This document shows, piece by piece, positions 3,722 to 61,803 of a stretch of 64,000 nt of DNA. The stretch covers positions 1,178,001-1,242,000 of the forward strand of contig NZ_CP049715.1 in assembly GCF_011082725.1 (NCBI RefSeq), given 5' to 3'. Position numbers and translations under genes: made by a program. Source of the stretch: Apibacter sp. B3706. GTDB taxonomy: Bacteria > Bacteroidota > Bacteroidia > Flavobacteriales > Weeksellaceae. Numbering within the stretch: the first letter of the stretch is position 1; the number at the start of each line of letters is the position of its first letter. Under the pieces are notes generated by a model, which saw only the letters and a list, made by a program, of their open reading frames with translations, searched no databases and was not told the origin of the DNA.

Positions 3722-4666
3722 TTAAATTACTTTTAATTGGGGCTTATGTTCTATTTTATCTTCCAAAAACAATTTCCCTCTTAAAATACTTTTAATTAAA
3801 TCCACAAATTTCTCTGCAAAAGTCGTTCTAATTTGATTGGTAGAATAAATTAATGATATTTCCCTGGAGGGTGAAGATGAAAAATATCTGATATTTTTCT
3901 TTTCTTCTTCCGATAAATTTTCTGATTCTAATAAAGGTAAAATGGTAAATCCGAACCCTTCATTAACTAAGTTAATCAGTGTAGTAAAACTTCCTCCTTC
4001 TAATTTTATATTAGAATTAATGGCTTCTCTATGCTTGCAAAGATCCAACACAACATCCCGAAAGCAATGGCCTTCTTCCAACATTAAAAGATAATTAAAG
4101 TCTAATTTATCAACATCTAAAACTGTTTCTTTATACATTTTCGCATCTTGCGGAGAAACGTAAGCTACTAATGGCTCTTTGTAAATAGGTTTTTCAATAA
4201 TTTGATTGTCATGTAAAGGTGTACTTGCAATTCCAAAATCCAAATAGCCTTCTTTGATGCCTTTTAAAATGTCCTCAGTTTTCATTTCTTTAATAACCAA
4301 GTCAGATTCCGGATATTTACTCCTAAAAGTTTTATAGAAAAGTGGCACTAAGGTGGGGGTTATTGTAGGTATAATACCAATGACAACCGTTCCGTTCATA
4401 CTTTTTTTATCTTCTTCTACAATTTGTGATAATTTATTAGCTTCAGATAAAATTATTTTGGCCTGTTCTACAATTTTCTTTCCTATAGGAGTTATTTTTA
4501 TAGGATTAGTTGTTCTGTCGAAAAGCTCAACTCGTAACGTTTTTTCAAGCTTTTGTATCTGCATACTCAAAGTAGGCTGACTTACGAAAGCTTTTTCTGC
4601 TGCTATCGTAAAATTTTTATATTCGGCAACAGTTAATACATATTGTAGTTGAATTAAGGTTATCAT
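3722..4666 (-). CDS. oxyR: LysR-family peroxide sensor OxyR
   Basis: 314 residues: an N-terminal LysR winged helix (residues 1-60, with FTIAAEKAFVSQPTLSMQIQ as the recognition region) and a periplasmic-binding-protein-like sensor domain. Two cysteines, C201 and C210, sit in EEGHCFRDVVLDLC, matching C199 and C208 of E. coli OxyR, the pair that forms the regulatory disulfide with peroxide. This makes OxyR more likely than a metabolite-sensing LysR protein. It is transcribed away from rpoD and upstream of the ferredoxin reductase gene. Confidence 0.88.
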   Translation of the reverse strand: MITLIQLQYVLTVAEYKNFTIAAEKAFVSQPTLSMQIQKLEKTLRVELFDRTTNPIKITPIGKKIVEQAKIILSEANKLSQIVEEDKKSMNGTVVIGIIPTITPTLVPLFYKTFRSKYPESDLVIKEMKTEDILKGIKEGYLDFGIASTPLHDNQIIEKPIYKEPLVAYVSPQDAKMYKETVLDVDKLDFNYLLMLEEGHCFRDVVLDLCKHREAINSNIKLEGGSFTTLINLVNEGFGFTILPLLESENLSEEEKKNIRYFSSSPSREISLIYSTNQIRTTFAEKFVDLIKSILRGKLFLEDKIEHKPQLKVI

Positions 4667-4786
4667 TTAAGATAATGTTTAATTATTCTTTGCAATTTAA
4701 CAAGATTATTCGAAATATTCACAAATTAATGCAGGTATTGTAACCTTTTACAAGTAATTTTCGTATATATAAATAAGTAAGTATAA

Positions 4787-4819
4787 TTTGTAGGTGAGTA
4801 AACAGTTCATCTACTTTTG
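4787..4819 (+). promoter_or_regulatory. Bacteroidetes-type promoter of rpoD
   Basis: TTTG at 4787-4790 and TACTTTTG (TAnnTTTG) at 4812-4819 with a 21-bp spacer, 26 bases before the rpoD ATG. This fits the known -33/-7 promoter of Bacteroidota housekeeping sigma factors, with a spacer slightly longer than the usual 19 bp. Confidence 0.6.
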
Positions 4820-4845
4820 TTTAAGATAAAAAGAGTTACTATTAA

Positions 4846-5712
4846 ATGAGACAATTAAAGATTACTAAGCAGGTAACGAACAGAGAAACAGCCTCTCTTG
4901 ACAAGTATTTACAAGAAATTGGAAAAGTGGATCTAATTACTGCTGATGAAGAAGTTGATTTGGCACAGCGTATTAAAGCGGGTGACAGGGTGGCTTTGGA
5001 AAAATTAACTAAAGCAAACCTGAGGTTTGTTGTTTCTGTGGCTAAACAATACCAAAATCAAGGACTTAGTTTACCTGACTTAATTAATGAAGGAAATTTA
5101 GGATTAATTAAAGCGGCTAAACGCTTTGATGAAACCCGAGGTTTCAAATTCATTTCTTATGCTGTTTGGTGGATTCGTCAATCCATACTTCAAGCATTAG
5201 CAGAACAATCCAGAATTGTACGTCTGCCCTTAAACAAAATCGGTTCTATTAATAAGATTAATAAAGCATATGCCCATCTTGAACAAGAACATGAAAGGGC
5301 ACCCTCTGCTGCCGAATTAAGTGAGGTATTGGATATGAGTGAGGACGATATTAAAGAATCCATGAAAAATTCAGGTCGCCACTTATCTATGGATGCTCCT
5401 TTAGTGGAAGGGGAAGATTCTAATTTATACGACGTTTTACGTTCGGGTGAATCTCCAAGTCCTGATAAAGAATTGATGTTGGAATCTCTTCAGATTGAAA
5501 TTGAAAGATCTCTTTCTACCTTAACTCAAAGAGAAGCCGATTTAATCCGTTTATATTTCGGTTTAAGCGGTCAACATCCGATGACCTTAGAAGAAATTGG
5601 TGAAACTTTTGACCTTACTCGTGAAAGGGTTAGACAAATAAAAGAAAAAGCTATTCGCCGATTAAAACATACCAGTAGAAGTAAAATTTTAAAATCTTAT
5701 TTAGGAAAATAA
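4846..5712 (+). CDS. rpoD: Primary sigma factor RpoD (SigA)
   Basis: 288 residues. Region 1.2 begins near residue 18 ([20 protein letters not shown]), region 2 holds the [17 protein letters not shown] and [10 protein letters not shown] blocks, and region 4 ends with the helix-turn-helix [20 protein letters not shown] near residues 245-264. Region 1.1 and the long non-conserved insert of proteobacterial sigma-70 are absent, as expected for Bacteroidota RpoD. It directs RNA polymerase to the TTTG/TAnnTTTG promoters noted elsewhere in this window. A hairpin terminator follows. Confidence 0.95.
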
Positions 5713-5739
5713 TTTTTTATTTACCTGATACTAAAGTAC

Positions 5740-5775
5740 AAAGGCTATTTATTGTATAAATAGCCTTTATTTTTT
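5740..5775 (+). terminator. Rho-independent terminator after rpoD
   Basis: A 12-bp perfect stem (AAAGGCTATTTA at 5740-5751, paired with 5757-5768) with a 5-base loop, followed by a T-rich run, 28 bases after the rpoD stop. Confidence 0.8.
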
Positions 5776-5785
5776 GTATTTAAAA

Positions 5786-5816
5786 TTTGCAGTAATAAAT
5801 TAAATAACTATATTTG
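5786..5816 (+). promoter_or_regulatory. Promoter of the CAU tRNA
   Basis: TTTG at 5786-5789, an exact 19-bp spacer, and TATATTTG at 5809-5816. This is a full match to the Bacteroidetes -33/-7 consensus, placed so that transcription would begin about 10-15 bases before the mature tRNA. Confidence 0.75.
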
Positions 5817-5834
5817 CAAACGCAAAGCAGCAGC

Positions 5835-5908
5835 GGTCCCATAGCTCAGTTGGTTAGAGCATCTGACTCATAATCAGAGGGTCCTTGGTTCGAGCCCAAG
5901 TGGGACCA
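5835..5908 (+). tRNA. tRNA with CAU anticodon (elongator Met, or Ile2 read with lysidine)
   Basis: A complete cloverleaf: acceptor GGTCCCA pairs with TGGGACC, the D arm has AGTTGGTTA, the anticodon stem TCTGA/TCAGA holds CTCATAA, and the T arm is CTTGG-TTCGAGC-CCAAG. The discriminator is A and the 3' CCA is not encoded. The acceptor lacks the unpaired first base of initiator tRNA. Elongator Met and Ile2 (CAU modified by TilS) cannot be separated safely by eye. An accessory island begins immediately downstream, and tRNA 3' ends are common integration sites. Confidence 0.92.
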
Positions 5909-5918
5909 CATTAAAATT

Positions 5919-5949
5919 AAAATCCTTACAAAGTTGTAAGGATTTTTTT
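5919..5949 (+). terminator. Terminator after the tRNA
   Basis: Stem AATCCTTACAA / TTGTAAGGATT with a 2-base loop, followed by a run of seven T, beginning about 11 bases after the tRNA. Confidence 0.75.
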
Positions 5950-6043
5950 GTTTTATTATTTATTGATTAGTTTTTTATCTAAGACGTTTCAATTATTCTA
6001 TTTTTACTTACCTAAAAAAATTTAAATGATTTTAGATGAAATA

Positions 6044-7870
6044 TTATAAAATGTCAAGTAATTCTGAAATTCCTTTTTCGTCTTTTTCTATTTCTTGTTC
6101 TAATTTTTCAATATAGTTCCAAATTTCAGTATAACAATTATATATTACATCTATAATTCCATGTATTTTTATAAAGTCAACAACTTGCTGATCCATGTGA
6201 TTAATATCTTCAAGCTTAACACTAAAAGTATGCTTTTCAAAATATTTAAGTCGTTTCTCATTGTGAGAATATCTTTTTAAAAATGTTATGAAATTTTCTT
6301 GTAATATATCGGGGAATTTTAACATTATCTTATCAATTTCAGGTGCGTTGAAAAATAAATCATTATATTTTGTAGATGAAAAATGGATTAATCCAGATTC
6401 AATTTTTTCATATTCGTTTCTAATAAATAGAAAATTTAAACAAATCTTATCACAAATTATATTAAATATTTCATTTTTATCATTTTTATTTTCAGGAAAA
6501 GCTAATTTTAACTGAGGAATTAAAAAAAATTTCAAAAAATTAACTTTATCTAATTCATAACATAATTTATAAAAGTTTGTATTACCTCCACTACTAAAAT
6601 CAAAAAATTTTGAGAACCTTTCTGTATATATTTTATTTTTTTGATCATTGTCAAGAGATTTTATTAAAGATGCTGCAAAATATTCTTGCAAAGATTTATG
6701 AGGGAAAGTATATTCTATGCCATCTTTTATTATAATTGAAATAGATGTGGTTAGATCGTACAGAACATTATCAAAATCAATATGTATACTCAGTTTAGTA
6801 CTAATTTTTTTTAATAAATCACTTAAATATTTTTCATCAAAATTATAATTTCCTTCAAGTAAAGAAAAATAAGAAAACCACTTTAATATTGTTTCTAATT
6901 CATCATTTTTTAAACCGGACTTTCGTTCATGTTGCCATCCCCCTGCTTTAGTAAAAGAATCATGCTTACTACACAACGTATCAAAAACATTCCAATAAAA
7001 TTTACTTCTTTGTTTAGGGAGTTCCGGATAATTATTAAATGTGAAAATAAACATTGATAATAACAGTGGACTAGATAAATATTCTCTATACTCATCATTT
7101 TCATGTTTATTAATTTCATAAATAATTTTTCTTTCTAACTCATCATTTTCTTGTAAACTTAGTTGCATTTTTATAAATTCATGTATGTCTCCCCCTTTTA
7201 AAGATTGTACTTCAAAATTATCAAATCTTGTTAGAGATTCCGCATTGGCCCCCGGTCGTGAGGTTACGATAAATACATTTTTGTTATATCTGTCTACAAA
7301 ATTTTCAATATCTGTTGTAATCTTGTCTTTATTTTCTGAATAAATTTCATCATAACCATCTAATAAAAAAATGAAATTACCTTCTTTTAAAATTCTTTCT
7401 GTAATTTTATGGTTAGGAGATATTTTATTTTGTGATATAATTCTAGTAATATATTCTTCAATTGTTTCTTTACAATTATTTAGATTTCTCAATTCTATAA
7501 TAATCGGTATATGTTTACAATTTTCTGCTGATAATAGAAAAATATGTCTTGTTAACATACTTTTACCACTTCCGGCATTACCTATTATTGTTAAATATTG
7601 ATAATTTTCAAATATTTCATCAAAATCATTTATCTCAATCGATTTCTTTTTATTTTGAATTTTTATCGGATAATAAATATCATAAAAATTAACTTTTTCA
7701 TCTCTATAAATAAATGTTTTAATTGATGAATATTTTTCATAAAAATTATTTATATAATCTATAAGTCCATTTTTATAGATAAAAAGATATTCATCTTTTA
7801 TATTGTTACCTAAATTTAATAATTGATCTTTAAAAGTCTCAATTAATTTTGCTCCAACAGATAAATCCAT
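6044..7870 (-). CDS. NACHT-domain NTPase, candidate anti-phage (bNACHT-type) protein
   Basis: 608 residues. The N-terminal 90 residues are helical with no recognised effector domain. The NACHT module follows: Walker A GNAGSGKS at 97-104, Walker B FLLDGYDEI at 168-176 with the family's DGxDE signature, and a sensor-like IVTSRPG at 201-207. The C-terminal 200-250 residues look helical and unclassified. NACHT proteins are STAND NTPases related to animal NLRs, and bacterial members are known anti-phage factors, so defence is a family-based inference. It stands alone on its strand between a tRNA and a 683-bp gene-free stretch. GC is very low (AAA/ATT/GAT codons dominate), consistent with transfer. 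Confidence 0.75.
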   Translation of the reverse strand: MDLSVGAKLIETFKDQLLNLGNNIKDEYLFIYKNGLIDYINNFYEKYSSIKTFIYRDEKVNFYDIYYPIKIQNKKKSIEINDFDEIFENYQYLTIIGNAGSGKSMLTRHIFLLSAENCKHIPIIIELRNLNNCKETIEEYITRIISQNKISPNHKITERILKEGNFIFLLDGYDEIYSENKDKITTDIENFVDRYNKNVFIVTSRPGANAESLTRFDNFEVQSLKGGDIHEFIKMQLSLQENDELERKIIYEINKHENDEYREYLSSPLLLSMFIFTFNNYPELPKQRSKFYWNVFDTLCSKHDSFTKAGGWQHERKSGLKNDELETILKWFSYFSLLEGNYNFDEKYLSDLLKKISTKLSIHIDFDNVLYDLTTSISIIIKDGIEYTFPHKSLQEYFAASLIKSLDNDQKNKIYTERFSKFFDFSSGGNTNFYKLCYELDKVNFLKFFLIPQLKLAFPENKNDKNEIFNIICDKICLNFLFIRNEYEKIESGLIHFSSTKYNDLFFNAPEIDKIMLKFPDILQENFITFLKRYSHNEKRLKYFEKHTFSVKLEDINHMDQQVVDFIKIHGIIDVIYNCYTEIWNYIEKLEQEIEKDEKGISELLDIL

Positions 7871-8553
7871 AAATAGTTAATTTTAATTAGTTAAAATTTT
7901 ATTTAGAATAAAATTATAAAAATAATCCAGGATAAAATTATTTTTTTTAATTAAATTTTTAAAAGATTCGAAATTTTTTTTCTTTTAACTAAGTGAAATT
8001 TATATTTCATATCCATACATTTGCTTTATATATTTTAGCGCGATTAAATCGAGTTACTCTTCTTCTTATCCAATTAGTTAAATTTTTAATTTATAAGATA
8101 ACATGGGCGATAAATTATTTTAAATTTTTAATTTTATATATATAATTTTATCCAAACAAGTAGAGATATTATCGTTATACGCAAAAAGTTAACTTCTGAA
8201 ATGAATAAAACTTAAAAGATAATTTTAAAAATTAAAAAATTAAAATTAAATCACTACGACTCGTAAAAAATAAAAAGAAATGTATAAAATCTATAATACT
8301 AAAATACTAAGATGCAAAATCAAAAAATCTTTTAAAATCTAATTCGAGTTTTAAGTCATCTAAAGATGATTATATATTAAATTTTATACTTATAATTCAT
8401 ATTAATTTTTAAATATTAAAAATCCGTATATTGATTAATTGCTTAGAAAAATTTTATTTTTTTTCTCATTCTTATATTCATAAGTAAAATTTTAATACGA
8501 TAATTTGGGAAAATGAACATAATTTTTCTACCGATTTATTTCATATTATTAAT
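7871..8553. other. Gene-free, extremely AT-rich spacer
   Basis: 683 bases between the NACHT gene and the helicase gene. Composition is mostly A/T runs with scattered stops in all frames. No coding stretch, tRNA, terminator with a clear GC stem or promoter with both elements could be recognised. Confidence 0.6.
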
Positions 8554-11500
8554 TTATTTTAAAGTTTGATTGAATGAAGAACTCCTTACCGATATACTAT
8601 TTTTTAAAATCTTAATTTCATCAATTAATTTCTTGTTTTTTCCCTGATAAACTAAAGATGTTTCATGTCTTACATAATTTCCTTTCCTTTGTGCACTTAG
8701 CCAATTAAATGATCCTATACATAGCAAATCTTCATCTTTAATAACAATTTTGCTGTGTACCTTAGTTATAAAATAAACATTTATTCCTTTACTTATTAGC
8801 TTAAAAAGAAATTGTTTTTTTTCTTCATTATCACCTAATAAATTGAGTTCATCATCAGTATAAATTGATATTTTAATGCCTTTTTGTTGAATCACTGATT
8901 CCATAAATGGCAATATATTGCTATTATTTACGGCATTTATTGAAAACCAAGGAGATACTATATAAATTTCTTTGACAGCATTATTTATTACATTTTTAAG
9001 AAACGAGTCGTGTTCATTCAAATTTTTAAGAACTTGAAAACCAACATTTCCTGATTCTAATAAATCTTTTCTTTCTATATATTCAAAATATAGACTATTT
9101 TTCTCACAAGAAAAAAGATAACGCGCTAAAATTCCTCTTGGCGTTTTTAACTTCGGATCGAATATATCCATATCTCCGAAAACCAAGAAGCTATCTTTTG
9201 CTCGAGATACGGCAACATTTAACATACTTGGCGGATTATCTATAAAAGTCCCATCGACATGTTTAGAGTAGACGGCAGAAAAAATTATTAATTTTCTTTC
9301 GGCTCCTTGAAAAGAATGAACCGTACCGATTGTTAAAAGATCTTCACCTTTATCTACATTTACATTTGCTTTAGAATTTCGTATAGCCCGTTTTATTTCG
9401 TTAACTTGAGCTCCAAATGGTGTGATAATCCCTACAATCTCATTCAAGGGCTGATTATATTTTTGTTCTAACTTTTGTTTATTTTCAATTATCCAATTAG
9501 CAATAACTCTTGCTTCTAATAAATTATAACGACTGCCTGATCCCGAATCTTGACATATTCCGTCAATATGTAAATATCCTAAGGCCGGAAAAAGTGAGTC
9601 TTTAGGTGAAATTCCTCGTTTTGGCAATAACTTTCCTTTATATATCAATTCATTACAATAACCAATAATTTCATTATAACAACGTCTATGTTCATATAAA
9701 TACATTCCCGGTTCCAAATCAGGATCATAACGATATCTGGATGCATTTTGTGCAATCTTCATCACACTGCCCGATGAAGCCGTTTTTCCTAAATCAGTTA
9801 ATTTTTCATATTCGTCTTCCACATTATCACTATTCAGAAGTTTAGCCTCCAAAAAATTTCCCACATCCACTTTTGGAGAAACGGACCAAATTGGTTCAAT
9901 TTGATGAATATCTCCAATTACCAGAGCTTTTTTACTGAGAGAAAATGAAGCTCCGGCAACTTCCGGTAATACCTGACCTGCTTCATCAACGATTAATAAA
10001 TCAGCCAAATTATATAAATAATCTTTAACGTAACCTGCTCCCGCATAAATAAAATGAGTAGGAAGCACATAGAAAGTTGAAACTACACAAGGAGTCAATT
10101 TCATCCTTAGATTCCATCGTTTAATTATGGCAGATTCTGCGTTTTTTTTATTCCATTTTTCTAAATTGGGAAGTAAATCTTCCATTTCAATTAACCAACG
10201 CCCTTCCCAATAATGGGTCGTTAACAAAAAAATATCAAATCGTATTTTAGTGTCCGCCTCAATATCCGCTTGATTAAGTGTTACCTTCTCAGAATTCTTT
10301 GTAACATGTAATGGTGCTAAAGCAATAGTCCAATTCGCTAAACAGGTTTCTAAATTTTGTATTAATTTTTTTATAATTTCTAAAATTCTCTCATTTTCGA
10401 GTATTGATTCACTTAGTGAAACCTTTTTATTTTCAATATATTCTGAAATTGAAATAAGGGTTTTAAATTGAAATTTTTCTTCTTTATCCCACACATCAGC
10501 AAGGTAAATCTTAGCCTTAAGCATACGTTTTTTAGCTACAAAAGGCATCCAAGAAAAAACTTGATACCATATATTTTCCCCAGCTTGAAATTGTTCCCAT
10601 TTAGATCGAATATTACTCCATAAATTTCTCTTTTCTTTCAAATTTTTTTCTTGACGTTCATAAAGCTCTAATTTTTCATAAGGGTTATTACCCAATTCTT
10701 GATGAACCTGCAAACGTATGTTATATAAAGCGTTCCATGATTCTTCCAAACATTTTAATTGTTTTGTTTTCGTAAGAATTTCTTTATGTAATCGTTTGAC
10801 GACATCTTCTATGGTTATATTTTTACTTTCAAGCTTTGGAAATGCTTTCGCTGCACATTCTTTATAAAAATATTTTGCTTTTTCAAAATATTCCTTGTCC
10901 TCCACTTGATTAAAGAATTTTTCAGTTTGAAAATTCTTTTCAGCTTGTTGAGCCTTACTTTTAGCCGGAAAATAAGCACCAAAACTGTCCATATTAGGTA
11001 ACCATCTGCCTGAAAAAGGACCTTCACCCTTTGAAAAATCTTTTCCAAATGCATCAATTATATTAGTCACTGCTTGATTATTTGTAGAAGCTGCAATAAT
11101 AATGGGGGGTTCAGACCCTTCCAATGCTCGCATTGCCCACAAAGAGGCAACTACGGAAAGTAACAGGGTCGTTTTACCCGTACCCGGAGGACCATTTACC
11201 GCAAGAATTTCTCCGGTTTCAGCATTTAATAAATGATTTAGTGCGTCGCGTTGCGCTTGAGCTAAAGGAAAAGTATTACTTGAATGAGCCAACCGCTTTG
11301 AAAAAAAACTATTACTTTCGAGACACGGTTGTTGGGGAGTAGAGGCTACAGAAGCATAACGTTCAAATAGAGGAATACTTTTAGAGCTATTTCGTAATTG
11401 TTCATATAAAGGAAATATATGTATTGCCGCATTTTTGACAAGATCTTGTTTTATTATATAACTGTGATCTAATCGTTCATAAGATCTGTTTTCTTTAATC

Positions 11501-12066
11501 CATTTTTTTGCCACCGTATTTAATAATGAATCGATAGTATTACAATATTTTTTCCAAGCATCAAAATATTTTTCATCACTTAATTTTGAATCTCCATCTT
11601 CAAATTCATTATAATTTATACCGGATATAGAATATGTGGATAGATAAACATCTAAATCATACATGGATCCAATTGCATAGGAACCATTAACTAAAGGTTT
11701 CAGTATATCTCGAGATATAAATGTACTGTCACTTTTAGGATAACATCTTCCGTCTCTGGCCAAAAAAGCAGCAGTTGATATAGGGACAAGGTATTCCGGA
11801 GTTTCATTAAATTTACCAAAACAATGTTCTGTAATATGATGATAAACTATAGGTCTTAAAATAATTTCAATAACTTTACAATCAGATGATTCATTTTTAA
11901 ACAGTTCTGTAGTTTTTTTCTCATCTAATTTTCCTGACGTTAGAAATTCCTTAGAACAAAATATCATTGATTCGGTATCTTTTTTATTTAATCCTCCCTT
12001 TGTAAAAGTGGCATCAGCTAAAGAATTACGCCAATATTTTGCAAAATTTTGTGATTTTGTGTCCAT
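8554..12066 (-). CDS. SF1 (DNA2/NAM7-like) helicase fused to a C-terminal phospholipase-D-type nuclease
   Basis: 1170 residues. Residues 1-260 are an uncharacterised N-terminal domain. SF1 helicase motifs follow: Q-motif PLAQAQRDAL 267-276, Walker A GPPGTGKTT 292-300, Walker B IVDEAGQ 692-698, motif III GDIHQIEPI 718-726, motif V GTVHSFQGAE 914-923 and motif VI VAVSRAKD 951-958. About 390 residues, partly coiled-coil-like, separate Walker A from Walker B. The C-terminal 150 residues carry one PLD motif, H1104-x-K-x4-D1111 (HSKIVIKD), followed by GSFN; one HKD motif implies a dimeric nuclease. Unwinding coupled to nuclease action is typical of defence-island proteins, but the specific system is not recognised. 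It is intact and beside a NACHT gene. Confidence 0.8.
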   Translation of the reverse strand: MDTKSQNFAKYWRNSLADATFTKGGLNKKDTESMIFCSKEFLTSGKLDEKKTTELFKNESSDCKVIEIILRPIVYHHITEHCFGKFNETPEYLVPISTAAFLARDGRCYPKSDSTFISRDILKPLVNGSYAIGSMYDLDVYLSTYSISGINYNEFEDGDSKLSDEKYFDAWKKYCNTIDSLLNTVAKKWIKENRSYERLDHSYIIKQDLVKNAAIHIFPLYEQLRNSSKSIPLFERYASVASTPQQPCLESNSFFSKRLAHSSNTFPLAQAQRDALNHLLNAETGEILAVNGPPGTGKTTLLLSVVASLWAMRALEGSEPPIIIAASTNNQAVTNIIDAFGKDFSKGEGPFSGRWLPNMDSFGAYFPAKSKAQQAEKNFQTEKFFNQVEDKEYFEKAKYFYKECAAKAFPKLESKNITIEDVVKRLHKEILTKTKQLKCLEESWNALYNIRLQVHQELGNNPYEKLELYERQEKNLKEKRNLWSNIRSKWEQFQAGENIWYQVFSWMPFVAKKRMLKAKIYLADVWDKEEKFQFKTLISISEYIENKKVSLSESILENERILEIIKKLIQNLETCLANWTIALAPLHVTKNSEKVTLNQADIEADTKIRFDIFLLTTHYWEGRWLIEMEDLLPNLEKWNKKNAESAIIKRWNLRMKLTPCVVSTFYVLPTHFIYAGAGYVKDYLYNLADLLIVDEAGQVLPEVAGASFSLSKKALVIGDIHQIEPIWSVSPKVDVGNFLEAKLLNSDNVEDEYEKLTDLGKTASSGSVMKIAQNASRYRYDPDLEPGMYLYEHRRCYNEIIGYCNELIYKGKLLPKRGISPKDSLFPALGYLHIDGICQDSGSGSRYNLLEARVIANWIIENKQKLEQKYNQPLNEIVGIITPFGAQVNEIKRAIRNSKANVNVDKGEDLLTIGTVHSFQGAERKLIIFSAVYSKHVDGTFIDNPPSMLNVAVSRAKDSFLVFGDMDIFDPKLKTPRGILARYLFSCEKNSLYFEYIERKDLLESGNVGFQVLKNLNEHDSFLKNVINNAVKEIYIVSPWFSINAVNNSNILPFMESVIQQKGIKISIYTDDELNLLGDNEEKKQFLFKLISKGINVYFITKVHSKIVIKDEDLLCIGSFNWLSAQRKGNYVRHETSLVYQGKNKKLIDEIKILKNSISVRSSSFNQTLK

Positions 12067-12229
12067 GAATTGTTCCTTTTTGTTTTGCTGTTTTAATTAT
12101 TTTATGAAGAAGCGTTTACTTAATTGAATGATCCTATTATTTAATTTCATTAGTGGTCATTTATTATTGATAGGTTTTACCAATTTTTTATCTAATGATT
12201 AAGTGCATTCGTTAGCTTTAAACATATAT

Positions 12230-12604
12230 TTAATTCTTAAAAATAATAGTATCTATTTTTTGCTCAATACGACTGTTTCTTTCACGCCCCCTACTTATCC
12301 ATCGGTTAGCCGCTTCTTCTTGTGAAAAAATACATAGGATGTTGTCTTCAATATTATAATCAAAAAGTTAGAATATAGAATTTTGAAAACTTTCGATTAT
12401 AAAAGATTGATATTCTACTAAATCATTATTAGATAATTTAGGAGTTAGAGCCGGTTGACTTCTATGTAAAATTTTCTTTATTTAAGTTATAGTAAAATTT
12501 TTAAAATCTGATTGATCTAATTGTTTAATAGTTTCTATTCGGGTAATAATATCTTCTTTTTCATTTAATATGATGGAAATTTTATCAGAATTTCGATTAC
12601 TCAT
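12230..12604 (-). pseudogene. Decayed 124-codon gene with two in-frame stops
   Basis: One frame runs from an ATG at 12604 to a TAA ending at 12230 and reads as coherent protein (MSNRNSDKISIILNEKEDII at the start, CIFSQEEAANRWISRGRE late) but is broken by TAA after residue 40 and again after the SFQNSIF stretch. Both look like simple nonsense substitutions, with no shift of frame. The product is not recognised. It could be a gene silenced after transfer, or a rare stop-containing remnant. Real coding origin is inferred from composition and frame length in very AT-rich DNA. Confidence 0.4.
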
Positions 12605-12761
12605 TTTTTTATTAATTAGTTAAATTGTGTCTTATAATAACGTTCAAATTAGCTTCATAGTACTATTCAAACAACTAGTTTTTTACCATTTAATCTTGTT
12701 AAAAAGCTATAAACACAGCAGGATAAGAAACAATGATTTTAGCTTGAGCGGAATTGCAACT

Positions 12762-12955
12762 TTATAAGATTCGGGTATTACAAAAAATATTTACCAACGG
12801 TAGCGGCTCCAGCGAGGGAATCAATCCTTTTAAAATATTCTCCGGCAAATCTAAAAAGGAAAATACTGCACTAACATCAAAATTTTGATGGATTCTTGTA
12901 TCAAAATTAATAGTTGTATACGCCTAAGGAAACTTAGAATTTACCGATTGTGAAG
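12762..12955 (-). pseudogene. Decayed gene fragment
   Basis: A minus-strand frame reads SSSQSVNSKFP, a TAG, then a clean stretch of about 53 codons containing VFSFLDLPENILKGLIPSLE before its stop at 12762. Codon choice and residue pattern look coding, yet no usable start exists and an internal stop is present. It lies directly downstream of another broken gene on the same strand, so the two may be parts of one decayed operon. Function not recognised. Confidence 0.35.
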
Positions 12956-12967
12956 ATGAATGTTTTT

Positions 12968-13273
12968 TTATAGTTGCCGTTTTTCCTCTGTTTGAAATTG
13001 GATATACCCATCGGCATATCTCGGATTTAAATTAATTCTGTCTAAGGTCCATTCCGGATAATGGCATATGTGCTTTTGATTATGCTCTTCAAACATCGGC
13101 CGGGTAATTCGTTTGTTTACATCCCATACTCGCATTCCATTTTTTTCCCATTGAACCAAGTTATACATTTCAGTGTTGTCTGCTTCATTAACAAAAAATT
13201 CTGCCGAAAATTCATTATTGGAGTAAATGATTAATTCGTTTACATTATGAAATCTACTGTACTAGTTTTTCAT
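12968..13273 (-). pseudogene. Decayed hypothetical gene (premature TAG at codon 4)
   Basis: From an ATG at 13273 the frame reads MKN, TAG, then about 97 sense codons, containing FFVNEADNTEMYNLVQWEKN and PRYADGYIQF, to a stop at 12968. An internal ATG at 13168 could still give a 66-residue product. Upstream, at about 13275-13325, the same strand and frame hold another coherent tail (VIHPDDLFRRRFIPNY then stop), suggesting a preceding gene now lost. I recognise no family. The 66-residue form might be expressed, but the longer reading is the more protein-like one. Confidence 0.4.
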
Positions 13274-13504
13274 TTAATAATTAGGTATAAATCGGCGTCT
13301 AAATAAATCGTCCGGGTGTATAACATTATTAGATTTATAGTAAGGTTAAATTTGAATCTTTCTTTATAAGAAAAAAGTTTCAAACAAATTTGTAGAAATA
13401 GTTAGCCAACATGCAACTATAATATTTAAGCCAAATTAAAATTTTTCCCTAATTCACTTCCTTTTTCTTTTCTGTTGTCGTTTAGATCAAATGTTTATTA
13501 AAAG

Positions 13505-14257
13505 TTATTTAAAATTTTCAATCTTACTCTTTATTTCACTTATAAAATCGGTTGCTAAAGTACTATTAAGTACATGTTCTTCAAAAGTCATGGTTAAATT
13601 CATAATAACTTTATAAAACTTTTCATTATTTTTTATGATCGGAATATTTTTTAACTTATCTAAACTTATACTCATTGTTGAGTTCAAAAATAGGGCTTCT
13701 GTAACTAAATCTTTATCTTTTAGCGAAGTGATCATAAAACTTCCCTGAATCCGGTGTCTTTTAGCTAAATTGTGATATGACAGATAAGAAATTAAACGTC
13801 TCAAATATTTAGGTTGATTTTCTATTAATCTGGTTTCTTTAAAAAAGATGGAAGTCTTATAATCAGAAAATTTACATTTATCTATTATTTCTTGAATTTC
13901 TTCAAGAGTTTTTTTATCAGAATTTTTAACCACACAAGGCATAACCTTATTTTCTCCATTAATCTTTCTGTCTAACATAAATTTTGCATTTATGGATTCG
14001 TATTCTACCACTTTCGGAAAAAATTTGGAGCGTTTGATGGCTATATTTAGTTCCGGAAAACATCTTAATACATCTGATATTATATATATCATATAAGCAG
14101 TATAAGAAATTTTTTTTCTTGTATTGTTATTTCTATGCTCAACGAGATTAGTACCATCTACGGGTACTGTGAGATGGATGGCATTTATTTTTTTGGTATA
14201 TTGTAAAAAACTATATACTCCCTTAATTTGTCGTGAAATAGGCTTTATTGGGTTCAT
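13505..14257 (-). CDS. Standalone E2-type (2-oxoacid dehydrogenase / CAT-like) acyltransferase with altered active site
   Basis: 250 residues matching the catalytic fold of lipoyl acyltransferases and chloramphenicol acetyltransferase: an N-terminal MNPIKPISRQIKGVYSFLQY, central SYTAYMIYIISDVLRCFPELN and C-terminal MTFEEHVLNSTLATDFISEI. No lipoyl or E1-binding domain is present. The catalytic HxxxDG of E2/CAT appears as HVLNST near residue 228: the His is kept but Asp and Gly are replaced, so activity may be changed or lost. It is 11 bp after a small gene on the same strand, likely co-transcribed. Acyl donor and acceptor are unknown. Confidence 0.65.
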   Translation of the reverse strand: MNPIKPISRQIKGVYSFLQYTKKINAIHLTVPVDGTNLVEHRNNNTRKKISYTAYMIYIISDVLRCFPELNIAIKRSKFFPKVVEYESINAKFMLDRKINGENKVMPCVVKNSDKKTLEEIQEIIDKCKFSDYKTSIFFKETRLIENQPKYLRRLISYLSYHNLAKRHRIQGSFMITSLKDKDLVTEALFLNSTMSISLDKLKNIPIIKNNEKFYKVIMNLTMTFEEHVLNSTLATDFISEIKSKIENFK

Positions 14258-14268
14258 TTTTTTATTAT

Positions 14269-14484
14269 TTAAATGTTAGAATCTTTTAGCGATAAACTCT
14301 TTACATTCTTTATTAATAAAAAATATTTATTTGAAAATATCTTTACTCCTTTTTCAACATACGCAACTATCTCTAATGGAAATAAAGAATTCCATTTTTC
14401 ACCTATTTGTGGTATTGCTCCAAATATGACCACTTTGTATAGCAATCCTTGCAAAAATTCACCTAATTTTTGAGTTTTATTCAT
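14269..14484 (-). CDS. Small hypothetical protein upstream of the acyltransferase
   Basis: 71 residues from an ATG at 14484. The middle is hydrophobic (LLYKVVIFGAIPQIGEKW) and the C-terminal half is basic. No family is recognised. It is assigned to this strand because it is 11 bp ahead of the acyltransferase in the same direction, whereas the opposing frame over the same bases has no neighbour to support it. It could be a fragment of a formerly longer gene. Confidence 0.4.
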   Translation of the reverse strand: MNKTQKLGEFLQGLLYKVVIFGAIPQIGEKWNSLFPLEIVAYVEKGVKIFSNKYFLLIKNVKSLSLKDSNI

Positions 14485-15706
14485 AAGTATTATTTTTTAA
14501 TAGTTTAAATTTAGTTTTATTGAATTTCGAGTGGTTAGCAGATTCTCTTATTTATTATTTATTTTTTTCTCATATCATTGTGTATTTTTTTTATTTTAAG
14601 CCATATATGAATTAACTAACGAACCTGTTTTTTGCCATAAAAACACATTCAATCTAATCCTAGTAATAACAGGAAAATTTTTCCGTAATTATTTTTTTAA
14701 AATAAATTAGTTTCATTCACTACTGCGTTCCCTATATTTAGGATTATCTATCTTTAAAAGAATAGCACCTATTTAATTTCTATTTTTTTATAATTCTTAT
14801 TGAAATCACCTATATTCTATCTGATATGAGCAAATCAATACTACATAAATGTCTTACTTAATTTTTACATTTCAAGTCGGATATACTAAATTTATGGCTG
14901 ATTATATATCCTTTATATTATCATGATATGTGATCTTCTATTTATAAATAATAATTGTTAACGCTTTTAATTAAATTTTTAATTGAATTAATCGAATTAA
15001 CCTACCCGCTAACATGTCTTTCTTTTAGAATTTAAATACTTACTTTTTGATATTAATTTCATTAAATTATATTTTATGTTAGTATAAATCAAATATATGA
15101 AAATAAATATACAATATTTTATTTATTTTTCATTTTTTTAATATATACAAGATATTTATACATTTTAAAATATAAAAATAGTTTTATTTACATATATTTA
15201 TTTATATATAATAAATAGTATAATTTGATTTTTTATTTAACAAAATTGTTTTTTTATAATTAATTTATAAAAAAACAATTATTATGTATAAAATATAATA
15301 CTTCTCTATAAAATAAAAAATATATATATCAATAATATATAAATAAATACATTAAATAAAATTATATAAATTTTAACTTGTATATTTTTTATTAATTTTA
15401 AAATAAAATTTTAAAATTTATATGTATTATTGCGTAATAAATAGTTTAATTTTAAAATGATTTATATGAATGTTCATAAATTAATCCCTATGGATTAAAT
15501 GTGTATTTAGTCAGTAAACTTATTTTATCTAACATGATAAAATTGTATTATCTTATTTATAGTTATAGATTTTTTAATAAAACCAATTTCTAAAATTAAG
15601 CATACATTATATACTGCCTAGTAAGGAGTAATTATTTATACCAACCGGATACGATTAAAATAATTACGATAAATATTATTGAATAAATATAATTTAATAT
15701 ATAAAA
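14485..15706. other. 1.2-kb gene-free, extremely AT-rich stretch
   Basis: By eye this is the lowest-GC part of the window, with long A/T runs such as those near 15110-15400. Stops are frequent in all frames, and no RNA gene, GC-stem hairpin or two-part promoter was seen. It forms the right edge of the accessory island between the tRNA and the secreted hydrolase. Confidence 0.6.
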
Positions 15707-16765
15707 ATGAAAATGAAAAATAAAATTATCTTAGCTTTTTTATGTTTATTACTTAATAGTATTAATTTATCTGCCCAATCGTTATCAAATTCTAAAAAAG
15801 ATATCTACAAAACAGGATTCCGTGAAATAAATATAAATGATTATTTAAGACCGCTTCAAATTGCTTTGATATATCCAACCTCGGCAAAACATCCCATTGC
15901 AAGAATTGGAGATAATGAATATATCATCGGTGAAAATGTAATTTATGATGCGAAAATATCCGATAAAAGCTTTCCTTTGGTTATTTTTTCTCATGGACTG
16001 AATGGGTCTTGGGATAATCATATTTGGTTAGCTGCAGCTTTAAGTAAAAGGGGATTTATTGTGGCAATGCCTAATCATCCCGGAACTACCTTGCAAGATA
16101 TGGATCCGCAACTTGCTCGAGATATGTTAGCCCGTCCGGAAGATATTCGTCGTACAATCAGTTATTTATTGGAAACTAAACAATTTTCAGATCATATAGA
16201 TGCTAATAATATCTCTATTATCGGGCATTCTTATGGAGGATGGACTGCAGTGGAAGCTATTGGCGGTAAATCTTCTGCTAAAGTTTTCAAAAAAGAATGT
16301 CGTAAATATCCCATCATGTTAGCTTGTGACATTTTTAATGAGCAAATGAAAGGTTTGGATGAAAGATCAGATTTTCTGAAATTAGATAAAGACATGAAAG
16401 ATCCCCGTATCAAAAGAGCAGTAATCTTAGATATAGGATTTGGCCGCATGTTTATTCCGTCCAGCTTATCGGAAATAAAAATTCCGGTTTTAGTCTATTC
16501 CGCCGGACCATTTGTAGAAAGAATACCGGCAGAATTAGAAACCGGTTATTTAACTAAATATCTACCGGAAAAAACTTCCAAACACATAGTTTTGAATAAT
16601 GCTACCCATTATAGCTTTATGGCTATCTGCAGAAAAAATGCAATAGAACTATTTAAAAAAGACAGACCGGATCAAGTTCCTACTTGTGAATTTGATACAA
16701 ATGAGCGTGCAAATATTCATACTCAATTGATTAAGCAAATAAGCAGTTTCTTAGTAAATAACTAG
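15707..16765 (+). CDS. Secreted alpha/beta hydrolase (dienelactone hydrolase / PAF-acetylhydrolase-like)
   Basis: 352 residues with an N-terminal signal peptide (hydrophobic residues 6-20, likely cut after LSAQ). The fold's markers are an oxyanion strand (LVIFSHGLNG), the nucleophile elbow GHSYGG and a late catalytic-His candidate in NNATHYSF. The size and PTSAKHPIARIG-like N-terminus recall PAF-acetylhydrolase/dienelactone-type esterases. It probably acts in the periplasm or outside on an ester substrate that cannot be named. A terminator follows, and it appears monocistronic. Confidence 0.75.
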   Translation: MKMKNKIILAFLCLLLNSINLSAQSLSNSKKDIYKTGFREININDYLRPLQIALIYPTSAKHPIARIGDNEYIIGENVIYDAKISDKSFPLVIFSHGLNGSWDNHIWLAAALSKRGFIVAMPNHPGTTLQDMDPQLARDMLARPEDIRRTISYLLETKQFSDHIDANNISIIGHSYGGWTAVEAIGGKSSAKVFKKECRKYPIMLACDIFNEQMKGLDERSDFLKLDKDMKDPRIKRAVILDIGFGRMFIPSSLSEIKIPVLVYSAGPFVERIPAELETGYLTKYLPEKTSKHIVLNNATHYSFMAICRKNAIELFKKDRPDQVPTCEFDTNERANIHTQLIKQISSFLVNN

Positions 16766-16785
16766 AAGCTTTAAAAAAATTTCAT

Positions 16786-53549: not shown

Positions 53550-55556
53550 ATGAAATTTCAAGTAGTTTCTCAATTTAAGCCTACAGGCGATCAGCCTCAG
53601 GCTATTGAATCACTTTCCAAAGGAATATTAAAAAATGAAAAGTATCAAACTCTATTAGGAGTAACCGGTTCGGGTAAAACTTTCACTATTGCCAATGTGG
53701 TTGAAAAAATTCAACGTCCGACTATCATCCTGGCGCATAATAAAACGTTGGCAGCCCAACTTTATATGGAATTTAAAGAATTCTTTCCAAATAATGCAGT
53801 AGAATATTTTGTTTCATATTACGATTATTATCAGCCTGAAGCATTTATGCCTACTACCAATACGTATATAGAGAAAGATTTATCCATTAATGAAAATCTT
53901 GAAAAATTACGTTTAAGCGCTACTTCTGCCCTGCTTTCCGGCAGACGAGATGTATTGGTGGTTTCTTCTGTTTCTTGTTTATATGGTATTGGAAATCCGG
54001 TAGAATTTAAAAGTAGCATGGTTTCATTAAAAGTGGGTCAGGCTATTTCAAAAACAAAATTACTGCAATCTTTAGTAAATGCCTTATATTCACGCTCAGA
54101 AATCAATTTTGGAAGAGGAAATTTTAGAGTCAAAGGGGATGTAATCGATGTTTTTCCTGCTTATTCAGATACAGGAATACGAATTCAATTTTTCGGAAAT
54201 GAGATTGAACGTATTGAAAATGTTGATTATGTTTCTAATAATGTAATTGATTCTATTGAAAGTATCAATATATATCCGGCTAACCTATTTGTGACATCTC
54301 CGGAAACATTAAATAATGCTATACGAAACATACAAATTGATTTAGGTAAGCAGGTCGACTATTATAATGAAGTAGGTAAAAATCTGGAAGCTCACCGCTT
54401 AAAAGAACGAACTGAATTTGACCTGGAAATGATTAAAGAGTTAGGATATTGTTCGGGTATTGAAAATTATTCTCGATATCTCGACGGTCGTCTACCCGGA
54501 ACCCGGCCTTTCTGTTTATTAGACTATTTTCCTGAAGATTATTTAATGGTAATTGATGAAAGTCACGTTACTTTACCTCAGGTTCATGCCATGTACGGAG
54601 GAGACCGAAGCAGAAAAGAAACGTTGGTAGAACATGGTTTCAGACTTCCTGCCGCACTAGACAACCGTCCTTTAAAATTTGAGGAATTTGAAATGATGCA
54701 GAATCAGGTCATTTATGTTAGCGCTACTCCAGCTGATTATGAATTGCAGAAAAGTGAAGGAATATACATCGAACAAATTATTCGTCCGACCGGATTACTG
54801 GATCCTGTAATTGAAGTGAGACCTTCTTTAAATCAAATTGATGATTTGATGGCTGAAATTCAAAAAAGAATTGAAGAGGATGAAAGGGTATTAGTTACTA
54901 CGCTAACTAAACGTATGGCGGAGGAATTAACTAAATATCTTACGAAATTTGGGATTAGAACTCGATTTATTCATTCAGATATTGATACGTTGGAACGTGT
55001 TGAAATTATGCAGGATTTACGTATTGGTAAATTCGATGTTTTAGTTGGTGTTAATTTATTACGTGAAGGATTAGATCTTCCCGAAGTTTCTTTAGTTGCT
55101 GTACTTGACGCCGATAAAGAAGGTTTTTTACGTTCGCATCGTTCTCTAACGCAAACTGCGGGTAGAGCCGCTCGTAATATTCACGGTAAGGTTATTATGT
55201 ATGCGGATAAAATGACGGATAGTATGAAAAAAACGATCGATGAAACTGCCAGAAGAAGAGAAATTCAAAATCAATATAATTTAGAACATCATATTACTCC
55301 TCAACCATTAAATAAAAAAATAACCAATATTTCCATTAATAACTTGGATAATGAAGTGAAATCGTATGCTCCAAGACATGAAATTAAAAAAGTGGCAGAG
55401 GATGAACCTCAATATAAATCAGAAGATTTAGAAAAAATTATTTCTAAAAAACAAAAAGAAATGGAAAAAGCGGCTAAAAATTTAGATTTCTTAACGGCTG
55501 CTCAATATAGAGACGAAATACAGGCTTTAAAGGATAAAATGAATTTATCTAATTAA
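53550..55556 (+). CDS. uvrB: Excinuclease ABC subunit B
   Basis: 668 residues, the normal UvrB length. The start has [14 protein letters not shown], Walker A GVTGSGKT, the beta-hairpin region [15 protein letters not shown], Walker [32 protein letters not shown] and the C-terminal UVR motif ([21 protein letters not shown]). It verifies DNA damage delivered by UvrA and loads UvrC. Its stop overlaps the stop of the convergent RHS remnant. Confidence 0.96.
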
Positions 55557-57113
55557 ATAGTATTTTTTAGCACGTACATCTGGTTCAATACGCTCAATAC
55601 ATTGCTAACAGCGTCATAGGTATATTTGTTACTAATGATCTGAGTTCTTACTCCTGTTCCTTGCGTTTTTGGTGATACCCAAACTTGTAGATCACTAAGT
55701 CTTCTTCTTTCAGGATCATATGTATAAGTGGTTTCCGAGCCGTTGCAATATTTTAGATAATTTCTTTGTTCGAATTTATCATAGCCTATTTTATTTACAT
55801 AGTCATAGCTATAGGCCTTGCTTCCCCTGATTCCGGTTAACAGACCTGCCGTATTATAAATATAATCTACTTTTTCTTGATCCGGATAAATAATCTGCTC
55901 TAGTTTATTCCATGTATCGTACTTGGTTTGGGTTACATAGATAGCGATTGCTTGATTAGGAATTATAACCGTACGGCGCACTTCGGTGATTTCTCCTAGC
56001 GTACCGTATTTATACTCTTGAGCACCGGTAGCATCTTCAACCAAAGATACTCTTCCTACTCGATTGTATTTGGCGTTTTTATTTCCGTAATGGTAGGTAA
56101 CATTGTTTTGAGGATTAGGAATAAAATCATAATCTGAAAAATAACTAATGCTTTTTAATCGATTATATTCATACTCATAGGTGGTACGTTTTTTCTCCTT
56201 CATCCATTTTTTGATGAACTATAAGGTTTCCTGAAGGATCATACTTCAATAGAATTTCTCCGATACTTGGGTGCCTTAATATTCTTCTTCTACCTGCCAT
56301 ATCGTAATCTGAAAAAGTTATTTGGCCTTCTGTATCTTTTACCTCATATAATTGATTAATCCCATCATATTTATAAAGGGTAGTAATCACTCCTGAAGGA
56401 CCGGATAATTGTTCGGTCTTAACGGTAAGCCCCGAACCGTTGGCGTAGGTTTTCTGTTTTCCTCCCATAGCATCCGTAACGATAGTTACTTGTTGTCTCT
56501 CAGTCGGATTAATCGTATATTCGGTTGTATTGGTAGCTGAATCGGGTAGTATGGTAGCTACGGTACGATCCATGATGTCGTATTTGCTGATTGTAGGGGA
56601 AACTTTATCAAATTCACGATTAAATATTCTAGCTTGAGTAGAATCTTCGGTTATCGGATAATAGGTTTTTACTACTCGTCCGAATGGATCCAGCATAGTT
56701 CTTCCGCTTACAATAAGTACCTTTTCGTCCTGAGGATTACTTCTGTTTGCATCGGCATGTGTTATCACTCCGTCTTTTTTTACCTGCAAGGTTCTTCCTA
56801 CTCCGTCAACAAAACTAAACGTTTTTATATCCTCTGTTGGGTGTTGCGGATTGTAATGATAGGTTATTGCATAAGCAGGATTTTCAATGTCTCCATCTGA
56901 ATTTAAAACTACTGACGGATTATACTTATATTTTATGGTATAAGGTAAATCCAATTCCAATTCATTTGGTCCGGTAATGGTCTCAATTCTTCCCAGATTA
57001 TCTATTGTGGTTTCTGTGAAATATCCGTTGATATCTTTGCTGGTTAACGGTATTCCATAACGATAATCATAATTTTCTAATAAACCGGTATATCCATTTG
57101 TTAATTTGAAAAA
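55553..57113 (-). pseudogene. RHS-repeat core fragment, headless, frameshifted and cut off
   Basis: About 520 codons of RHS/YD-repeat protein (KYKYN..., YDIMDRTVA, GEITEVRRT, TYTYDPERRRLSDLQVWVS). The open frame begins directly after a TAA at 57114-57116 with no start. It shifts frame at a run of six T (56189-56194); with five T, the two halves (57113-56175 and 56203-55553) join perfectly. After SNVLSVLNQ the RHS homology stops and a foreign 8-residue tail ends it. It is probably a piece of a larger RHS gene displaced by rearrangement, and not functional as it stands. Confidence 0.8.
55591..55689. repeat. RHS core direct repeat, copy A (copy B at 61093-61191)
   Basis: These 99 bases align without gaps to 61093-61191 and clearly share ancestry (both encode the LQVWVSPKTQ...YDAVSNVLSV segment). 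The two RHS pieces overlap only here, so the repeat is a candidate recombination point. Confidence 0.75.
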
Positions 57114-57123
57114 TTAATAATAT

Positions 57124-57159
57124 AATCAAAAAACCTCGCATTATGCGAGGTTTTTGATT
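57124..57159 (-). terminator. Terminator of RHS module 1
   Basis: Stem AAAAACCTCGCA / TGCGAGGTTTTT with loop TTA, nearly symmetrical and flanked by A/T tracts, directly after the stop of the module 1 immunity-like gene. Confidence 0.8.
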
Positions 57160-57160
57160 T

Positions 57161-57571
57161 CTATTTACCTTTTGCCCATTCGGGACGTTCTTTCCAGCCT
57201 CCCGGCGGAGCTTGCTTTATGCTATCCGGTACTGGAATATCCTGGTATATTTTTGAATAACTATTATCCTCCAATGAAAATTGGACCAAATAATACCTCC
57301 CTTTTTTAGGATTTGCATCTTCATCATGTATATTACTATTTGAATATTTTTTACCATTTACGGTATATTCATAACTTACTTTTTTATAAGATATTATAGG
57401 CCAATAGATCCGATCTATATACCCTATCGTGTAATTGCCATAATCTACAGGATTATGTTTGTAACTTATATACATATACAGCAAAATAAAAGGTATTATA
57501 ATAAATAAATAATTCCATTTTGATTCCTTTTCAACTAAATAATAGCGTAAAGTTTCTATAAACTTATTCAT
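57161..57571 (-). CDS. Probable immunity protein of RHS module 1 (one-helix membrane protein)
   Basis: 136 residues with one membrane helix at about 20-37 (YLFIIIPFILLYMYIS) and an outside or periplasmic part with a YEYTVNGKKYSNSN stretch. No known family is recognised. It starts 12 bp after the RHS-tip toxin gene on the same strand and is closed by a terminator, the standard place of an immunity gene. A membrane-anchored antidote suggests that its toxin acts at the membrane or in the periplasm; this is inference. Confidence 0.6.
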   Translation of the reverse strand: MNKFIETLRYYLVEKESKWNYLFIIIPFILLYMYISYKHNPVDYGNYTIGYIDRIYWPIISYKKVSYEYTVNGKKYSNSNIHDEDANPKKGRYYLVQFSLEDNSYSKIYQDIPVPDSIKQAPPGGWKERPEWAKGK

Positions 57572-57583
57572 TAGGGTTATTTT

Positions 57584-58540
57584 CTAATCCAATTTATTTT
57601 GAATCACATTGACTCCATAATCCGGTGCATTCATAAATACAGTTGCGGCTTTGCTTCCTGCTGTTTGACCAAAGCGTACGCTGGTTTGCATATATGTCCC
57701 GATTACGGTTCCTTTAAATAATTGTGAACCACTGATTCCTGTAGCTGCAGCTCCTCCTATCATTCCTAAGGCTGCCTGGCTTAAAAACTTATCTCCTTTA
57801 AGTGTTCCATTAAATATGGATTTCATTTTTTCATTCATTGTTATTGGAGTTGATGAAGAAAGCAAGGCATTACCTACATAATTCATTCCTAGACCCGCTA
57901 ATCCGCTCTGGGTAAGGTTGACGTCTCCTATAGCTTTGGTCAAATCTCCGCCGTTTGTAGTCATGTTTGCCGCCGTTTGTACAGCTGCATCTGTGCCTAC
58001 TCTACCTAAAACGGCTGTAGTTGTTGCTCCTCCGGATAAACTAAAGAATCCTGCTGCTATGCCTTCATAAGCCGCAAACGGTCCGAAAATCACGCCTAAT
58101 GCTCCTAACGTCCAGTTCTTTACATCATCTGTATGCATTAAGGGTTTTCCGCCATAGGCATCCAAATATCGTTGATAGGCTTCTCTTGAGCGTCTTTCTT
58201 TTTCCTGCTGTTGCTTGGTTACTTCATCGTTGGACGGTCTTCTTTTTCCTATTACTTCTATTTCTGGTAATACTGTCTCATTCTCTGGATCTACGCCTTC
58301 TGTTTTCATTCCTGTTGGATCTGTATACTTTATTGGGTTCTGATAGGTATACTGATATATTAACATTGTTTTATCATATAAGGAATCTACACTTAAAAAG
58401 ATACTTTCTCGCGGATTATAGTATCTTGCTCCATAATAATACTCATCCAACTCAGTTCTGCGTGCGTTTCCTTCGTCTAAAGCCGTGTGATTCTTCCTCA
58501 GAAATAGTGAATAATAGGGATTCTTTCTAATGATCATCAT
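57584..58540 (-). CDS. RHS module 1: orphan RHS tip with unknown C-terminal toxin domain
   Basis: 318 residues. After about 30 unrelated residues, the conserved RHS tip (YYYGARYYNPRESIF...YQNPIKYTDPTG) appears, then a linker (LPEIEVIGKRRPSNDEV) and a C-terminal part of 200 residues rich in Gly/Ala helices (GALGVIFGPFAAYEG, GMIGGAAATGISG) ending in VIQNKLD. The RHS core is missing, so the gene is a displaced cassette. The hydrophobic C-terminus resembles pre-toxin segments more than an enzyme. No catalytic motif is recognised. Confidence 0.7.
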   Translation of the reverse strand: MMIIRKNPYYSLFLRKNHTALDEGNARRTELDEYYYGARYYNPRESIFLSVDSLYDKTMLIYQYTYQNPIKYTDPTGMKTEGVDPENETVLPEIEVIGKRRPSNDEVTKQQQEKERRSREAYQRYLDAYGGKPLMHTDDVKNWTLGALGVIFGPFAAYEGIAAGFFSLSGGATTTAVLGRVGTDAAVQTAANMTTNGGDLTKAIGDVNLTQSGLAGLGMNYVGNALLSSSTPITMNEKMKSIFNGTLKGDKFLSQAALGMIGGAAATGISGSQLFKGTVIGTYMQTSVRFGQTAGSKAATVFMNAPDYGVNVIQNKLD

Positions 58541-58625
58541 AATGATAAAAATACTTTTTTTTGATATAAAATATTTTTTTATCTTTTTGTTAAAAGTTTT
58601 TCTTTTTTTTATTTTAATTACTAGT

Positions 58626-58652
58626 AAAAACCCCGCTAAAGGCGGGGTTTAG
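58626..58652 (-). terminator. Terminator of RHS module 2
   Basis: AAACCCCGC pairs with GCGGGGTTT around a 5-base loop, with a T-rich tract on the minus-strand exit side, about 50 bases after the module 2 immunity gene. Confidence 0.8.
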
Positions 58653-58701
58653 GGTTTATTTTTCTCGTTAACGAAAAAGGATTTAATTATGATATATTTT
58701 A

Positions 58702-59124
58702 TTATATCTTTATATAACTAACAAATCCATCATGTCTTATTGAAATAATCCAATTTAAACTTTCATCAAATATATCTATATCATCTGAACTTGGAAACCA
58801 AATATCATAAAAGTATTTATTAAAATCAACTAAATTAAATAAATCTATATCATCAAATTTATACCAATTAATATATATTTTTGATAAAGGAGATAACTCT
58901 ATTATTTCAAAAATTCTACTAATATCAAAATTTTCTTCAACATTAATATCTTCCAACGGTAATTCTATAGAACTTAATTCTTTATTTAATGAATGGATAG
59001 ATAAATTATACTTCCCAGATATCTTAGAACGTATACTAAAACTATCTTGTTCAGACAAATGCAAATATGACGGAAAATTAATTTTATATTCTTTCTCAAA
59101 TAATTCTATTTTAAAATCTTGCAT
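58702..59124 (-). CDS. Probable immunity protein of RHS module 2
   Basis: 140 residues, acidic, soluble, no membrane helix (contains IELPLEDINVEENFDISRIF and WFPSSDDIDIFDES). It begins 2 bases after the stop of the RHS toxin gene and is followed by a terminator. Its strong negative charge contrasts with the Lys/Arg-rich toxin tip, as expected of a directly binding antidote. Family not recognised. Confidence 0.65.
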   Translation of the reverse strand: MQDFKIELFEKEYKINFPSYLHLSEQDSFSIRSKISGKYNLSIHSLNKELSSIELPLEDINVEENFDISRIFEIIELSPLSKIYINWYKFDDIDLFNLVDFNKYFYDIWFPSSDDIDIFDESLNWIISIRHDGFVSYIKI

Positions 59125-59126
59125 AA

Positions 59127-60878: not shown

Positions 60879-60892
60879 AATATCATTTTGCG

Positions 60893-61216: not shown

Positions 61217-61257
61217 TCATCGAACTGATTTTTTTGTTAAATTAACCCTTTTTCACC

Positions 61258-61518: not shown

Positions 61519-61523
61519 AAGAT

Positions 61524-61546: not shown

Positions 61547-61570
61547 GGACTTTTGTTTACATTTATGTGG

Positions 61571-61798: not shown

Positions 61799-61803
61799 TT
61801 ATT

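Follow-up and report, generated by a model that had tools for sequence, protein, structure and literature searches.

The mkoC locus and its genomic slot

The window analyzed here is a 64,000-nucleotide stretch of the Apibacter sp. B3706 genome. Positions 8554 to 12066, for which the coordinates of the original prediction were exact, hold one uninterrupted open reading frame (ORF) of 1,170 codons that is read on the minus strand from 12066 to 8554 (the original prediction gave no strand), and the plus strand across the same interval is full of stops. We refer to the gene as mkoC, for reasons given below (Table 1). Pfam analysis of the product indicated AAA_11 (residues 269 to 489), AAA_12, and a C-terminal PLDc_2 domain, in that order within a single chain and all exceeding the curated cut-offs. 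The sequence and its alignment also contained the helicase motifs Walker A (GPPGTGKTT, 292 to 300), Walker B, III (GDIHQ, 718 to 722), V (GTVHSFQGAE, 914 to 923), and VI (VAVSRAK, 951 to 957). The HKD pattern, H1104-x-K1106-x4-D1111, occurs once per chain, and HSKIVIKD is followed by GSFNW, such that the HxKx4D pattern and the downstream GS and N residues of Nuc-like single-HKD PLD nucleases are all present. Pfam and motif reading confirmed that SF1 helicase motifs and a single C-terminal HKD nuclease share one 1,170-residue chain, as had been predicted, and the motif positions bore out the predicted spacing of about 390 residues between Walker A and Walker B. The Walker A lysine, earlier given as K299, was placed at K298 by the alignment.

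Table 1. Features of the mkoC locus, with coordinates in the window
Feature	Position	Strand	Basis
tRNA-Met, left border of variable slot	5835..5909	+	ARAGORN; homology to congeners stops around 5955
Variable slot: mkoC, NACHT gene, 2-oxoacid-dehydrogenase-acyltransferase-like gene, fragments	5954..15670		Flanks shared with congener G011, which has unrelated DNA between them
NACHT gene with C-terminal SNaCT8	6044..7870	-	Pfam PF05729, PF22714; without PADLOC match
mkoC, very probably a complete Mokosh type II protein, 1170 aa	8554..12066	-	PADLOC PDLC03924 MkoC, 1344.7 bits, residues 1-1158
PLDc_2 nuclease domain, residues 1023-1142	8641..9000	-	Pfam PF13091, E=4.7e-10; profile matches to PDB 1byr, 6ehi, 4ggj
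HKD motif HSKIVIKD, H1104, K1106, D1111	8734..8757	-	Among 45 PLD-bearing homologues, all keep H and K and 44 keep D
AAA_12, helicase second half, residues 789-966, motifs V and VI	9169..9702	-	Pfam PF13087, E=8.9e-23
Walker B DEAGQ, residues 694-698	9973..9987	-	D694, E695 invariant in 91 homologues
Long alpha-helical insert separating Walker A and Walker B, about residues 369-640	10147..10962	-	AlphaFold2 model
Walker A region GPPGTGKTTL, residues 292-301, catalytic K298	11164..11193	-	K298 kept in all 91 homologues, 45 with and 46 without PLD
MkoC N-terminal region, residues 1-262	11281..12066	-	20 invariant columns among 23 homologues

The gene lies in a 9.7-kb slot with tRNA-Met on one side and a conserved hydrolase gene on the other. 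The flanks of the slot, 4118 to 5953 (a sigma-factor gene at 4846 to 5712 plus the tRNA-Met) and 15671 to 16767 (the hydrolase gene), are common to the window and congener G011, where the 12.6 kb between them is unrelated DNA (L150). The same tRNA-Met is followed by a type I restriction-modification system in congener G007 (L152) and by a type II methyltransferase in congener G004 (L151). Because the flanks are conserved and the contents differ between congeners, some of which carry restriction-modification genes, we conclude from the sequence comparison that the slot downstream of tRNA-Met is a variable site used by defense genes in this genus. In G004, the 3′ end of the tRNA-Met is repeated at L151:15554-15610, 13.7 kb downstream of the tRNA, and the repeat is likely the attachment site of an integrated element; no convincing attachment-site repeat bounding the island was found within the window.

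Two further observations concern the slot and one concerns the window beyond it. A stand-alone protein of 250 amino acids encoded at 13505 to 14257 matched the catalytic domain of 2-oxoacid dehydrogenase acyltransferases, the fold of which is common to chloramphenicol acetyltransferases. Upstream of mkoC, positions 12080 to 13500 contain short ORFs only, perhaps gene remnants. Elsewhere, positions 55553 to 62568 contain several RHS/YD-repeat-like ORFs with differing C-terminal ends and small genes between them, an arrangement that by eye alone resembles a polymorphic-toxin cassette.

Assignment to Mokosh type II

Mokosh type II consists of one gene, mkoC, the product of which has an RNA helicase at the N terminus and a PLD domain at the C terminus (PMC10013915; PMC11672841). 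The PADLOC MkoC profile PDLC03924 matched the window protein with an E value of 0, pairing residues 1 to 1158 with profile positions 1 to 1132 of 1136, and the match was collinear through the N terminus, the insert, and the PLD domain. The weaker PADLOC matches included MkoA (127.6 bits) and MkoB (49.7 bits), consistent with a related helicase and a related PLD domain in Mokosh type I. Type I, however, divides these functions between genes and includes a serine/threonine kinase domain (PMC11672841), whereas in the window one chain carries both and no kinase gene adjoins mkoC, the neighbors being the NACHT gene and the acyltransferase-like gene, both of which lacked PADLOC matches. Membership in type I was rejected on these grounds. 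With type II, the window copy shares the single gene, the full-length profile match, the retained catalytic residues, and the lack of a kinase partner, and no important difference was found.

The original prediction had matched the protein to no named defense system, had singled out its long insert, and had left its N terminus unassigned. The MkoC profile fits the protein almost end to end, and both the profile and the family alignment run through the insert, which is thereby ruled out as a novelty of this copy. Since the N terminus and the insert both fall inside the profile, they are normal family anatomy rather than peculiarities of the window protein. Predicted alone (mean pLDDT of 79.1), residues 1 to 262 of the conserved N terminus showed no clear similarity to a known fold, with a best fold-search Z score of 3.1 and zero Foldseek matches at E values of ≤0.001, a result that does not speak for a new fold.

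Conservation was assessed in an alignment of six PLD-bearing proteins first and then in one that covered 91 homologues, 45 of them with and 46 without the PLD domain. The window protein is approximately 28 to 48% identical to the other aligned PLD-bearing homologues, and its helicase and HKD catalytic residues are all intact. Like K298, D694, and E695, residues Q722, R795, and R955 were present in all 45 PLD-bearing and all 46 PLD-less homologues, and E923 was substituted in only one homologue of the combined set.

An AlphaFold2 model of MkoC built with 39 sequences (mean pLDDT of 88.7, pTM of 0.82) resolved the insert into four helices of 35 to 50 residues (419 to 458, 462 to 496, 537 to 586, and 597 to 640). 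The best solved relatives of the model were IGHMBP2 (Z score of 24.3, root mean square deviation [RMSD] of 5.9, 483 residues aligned) and UPF1 (Z score of 23.7, RMSD of 4.8, 478 residues aligned), and the predicted helicase core is a UPF1/IGHMBP2-like SF1 fold. UPF1, IGHMBP2, and Sen1 share this core fold but have no PLD nuclease, and UPF1 has a much shorter segment where MkoC carries its helical insert. The PLD part of the MkoC alignment profile matched Nuc endonuclease (1byr), NucT (6ehi), and mitochondrial cardiolipin hydrolase (Zucchini; 4ggj), which likewise have a PLD nuclease domain with a single HKD motif but are stand-alone enzymes rather than helicase fusions. We conclude that the window gene is, with high confidence, mkoC, the one gene that makes up the anti-phage system Mokosh type II; judged by its sequence, its product is an ordinary copy of an already known single-protein defense system in which a UPF1-like helicase and a PLD nuclease are joined. 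The defense role anticipated by the original prediction is very probable.

Distribution, origin, and alternative explanations

Matches to the MkoC profile were found in 2 of the 9 genomes from the genus and in 16 of the 320 from the family, and MkoC relatives occurred in 66 plasmid records, 50 of them with coverage of at least 80%. Relatives in genome contigs were recovered with an alignment query; a single-sequence query with the window protein returned no relatives from the contigs, probably because its patterns were too specific. QatA lies directly downstream of a PLD-bearing relative in one genome (G001), and another such relative (G006) has genes for type I methyltransferase and specificity subunits as neighbors. 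A DpdF/PsyrT profile match in G006 was not accepted as a defense gene, since RecQ helicases match profiles of this kind as well. Among 106 neighbors of PLD-bearing relatives (PADLOC, E values of ≤1e-20), at least five matched type I methyltransferases and at least five matched specificity subunits, figures that cover the 25 commonest families and are lower bounds. The association with other defense genes that the original prediction proposed to look for was found, in the form of restriction-modification and Qat neighbors. Homologues might have proved to be mainly stand-alone core genes without defense neighbors; the PLD-bearing family is instead patchy, present on plasmids, and accompanied by such neighbors.

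A helicase tree was built with FastTree; its deep branching, and with it the number of PLD gains and losses, is tentative. The window protein paired with a protein of the bumblebee gut symbiont "Ca. Schmidhempelia bombi" (60 to 61% identity, support of 100), and the two fell inside a 14-member gammaproteobacterial group of Mokosh II proteins (support of 97), while other PLD-bearing Bacteroidota proteins fell elsewhere. The "Ca. Schmidhempelia bombi" copy (L057:712-3744), the closest relative, stops before the PLD domain, and no PLD domain was found in the frames that follow it. The simplest reading of a gammaproteobacterial placement beside a bumblebee-gut symbiont is horizontal acquisition, and we conclude that the window mkoC was probably acquired from gammaproteobacteria.

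The same data bear on whether the gene serves defense at all. The helicase core resembles those of UPF1, IGHMBP2, Sen1, and Dna2, and the PLD domain is absent from many relatives, as might be expected of a UPF1/COG1112-type housekeeping helicase of RNA or DNA metabolism that happens to bear a PLD domain. Such a role is most improbable given the sparse distribution in genus and family, the plasmid-borne relatives, the location of the window copy in a variable slot, a tree discordant with species, and a full-length match to a defense profile. Alternatively, mkoC could be intact in sequence but a non-functional relic in a decaying island, which would suit the low G+C content, the fragments just upstream of the gene, and the truncation of its nearest relative. 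We consider a relic very unlikely, however, as the ORF is full length, every catalytic residue is kept, and the profile match runs end to end.

The original prediction had suggested an accessory or combined system formed with the adjacent NACHT gene, which lies on the same strand within the same slot. A 683-bp stretch of A+T-rich DNA separates the two genes, and linkage was not seen elsewhere: no NACHT relative occurred near any of the 15 other MkoC-type loci of the same family, and no MkoC occurred near five NACHT homologues examined in context. Relatives of the NACHT gene were found in 13 of 320 family genomes, and genomes with both matches were limited to G000, G071, and G172, the NACHT match being weak and on a different contig from the MkoC match in the latter two. 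One combined MkoC-NACHT system is thus barely credible, and the lack of linkage at those loci leads us to regard the NACHT gene as separate. The known phage-defense proteins bNACHT02 and bNACHT12 are among the SNaCT-bearing bacterial NACHT proteins (PMC12169576), and the NACHT-SNaCT8 protein of the window is probably a stand-alone bNACHT defense gene. We conclude that a one-gene Mokosh type II system remains the preferred reading of mkoC.

Proposed action of MkoC and its PLD-less relatives

No mechanistic study of MkoC was found in the literature searched, and a passage of PMC11291487 relays from other work that Mokosh degrades viral transcripts. Based on its domains, we infer that the MkoC helicase recognizes phage nucleic acid and thereby permits the PLD nuclease to act. 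The helicase part would bind and translocate on nucleic acid made or exposed in phage infection, and ATP hydrolysis would either switch on the PLD domain or deliver substrate to it. The activated PLD domain would then cut nucleic acid, with phage transcripts, phage genomes, or the host's own nucleic acid being lost as a result. Because each chain has only one HKD motif, MkoC is probably dimeric, with the PLD domain working as a Nuc-like dimer. Recognition and control would most likely reside in the N terminus and in the insert. A comparable arrangement is found in Hachiman, in which a sensor helicase governs an effector nuclease (PMC12278908). The comparison is one of mode of action and not of homology. 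Hachiman uses two proteins, the nuclease HamA and the helicase HamB, rather than a single chain; its helicase is SF2-type and its nuclease differs from PLD.

Of the 16 genomes of the family that the MkoC profile matched, 12 have a shorter, PLD-less helicase. At four such loci, a 441-amino-acid protein is encoded 7 to 8 bp downstream of the helicase gene (L034:10931-12256, L035:10642-11967, L037:6732-8057, and L038:10958-12283). The one that was scanned contained a HEPN_Apea domain with the RxxxxH motif RDAITH, and the other three are 94 to 99% identical. One tentative and rather doubtful reading is that the MkoC helicase serves as a general sensor with an exchangeable effector, which would be the fused PLD domain in Mokosh II and, in relatives that lack this domain, a separate HEPN RNase. 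All four loci come from one genus, and thus the pairing may be a local arrangement rather than general effector exchange; the reading concerns the PLD-less relatives and not the mkoC gene of the window.

A protein that looked unassigned is very probably a Mokosh type II system of the standard kind, carried by a Bacteroidota host, and the slot downstream of tRNA-Met would be a place to look for further exchangeable defense systems in the genus.
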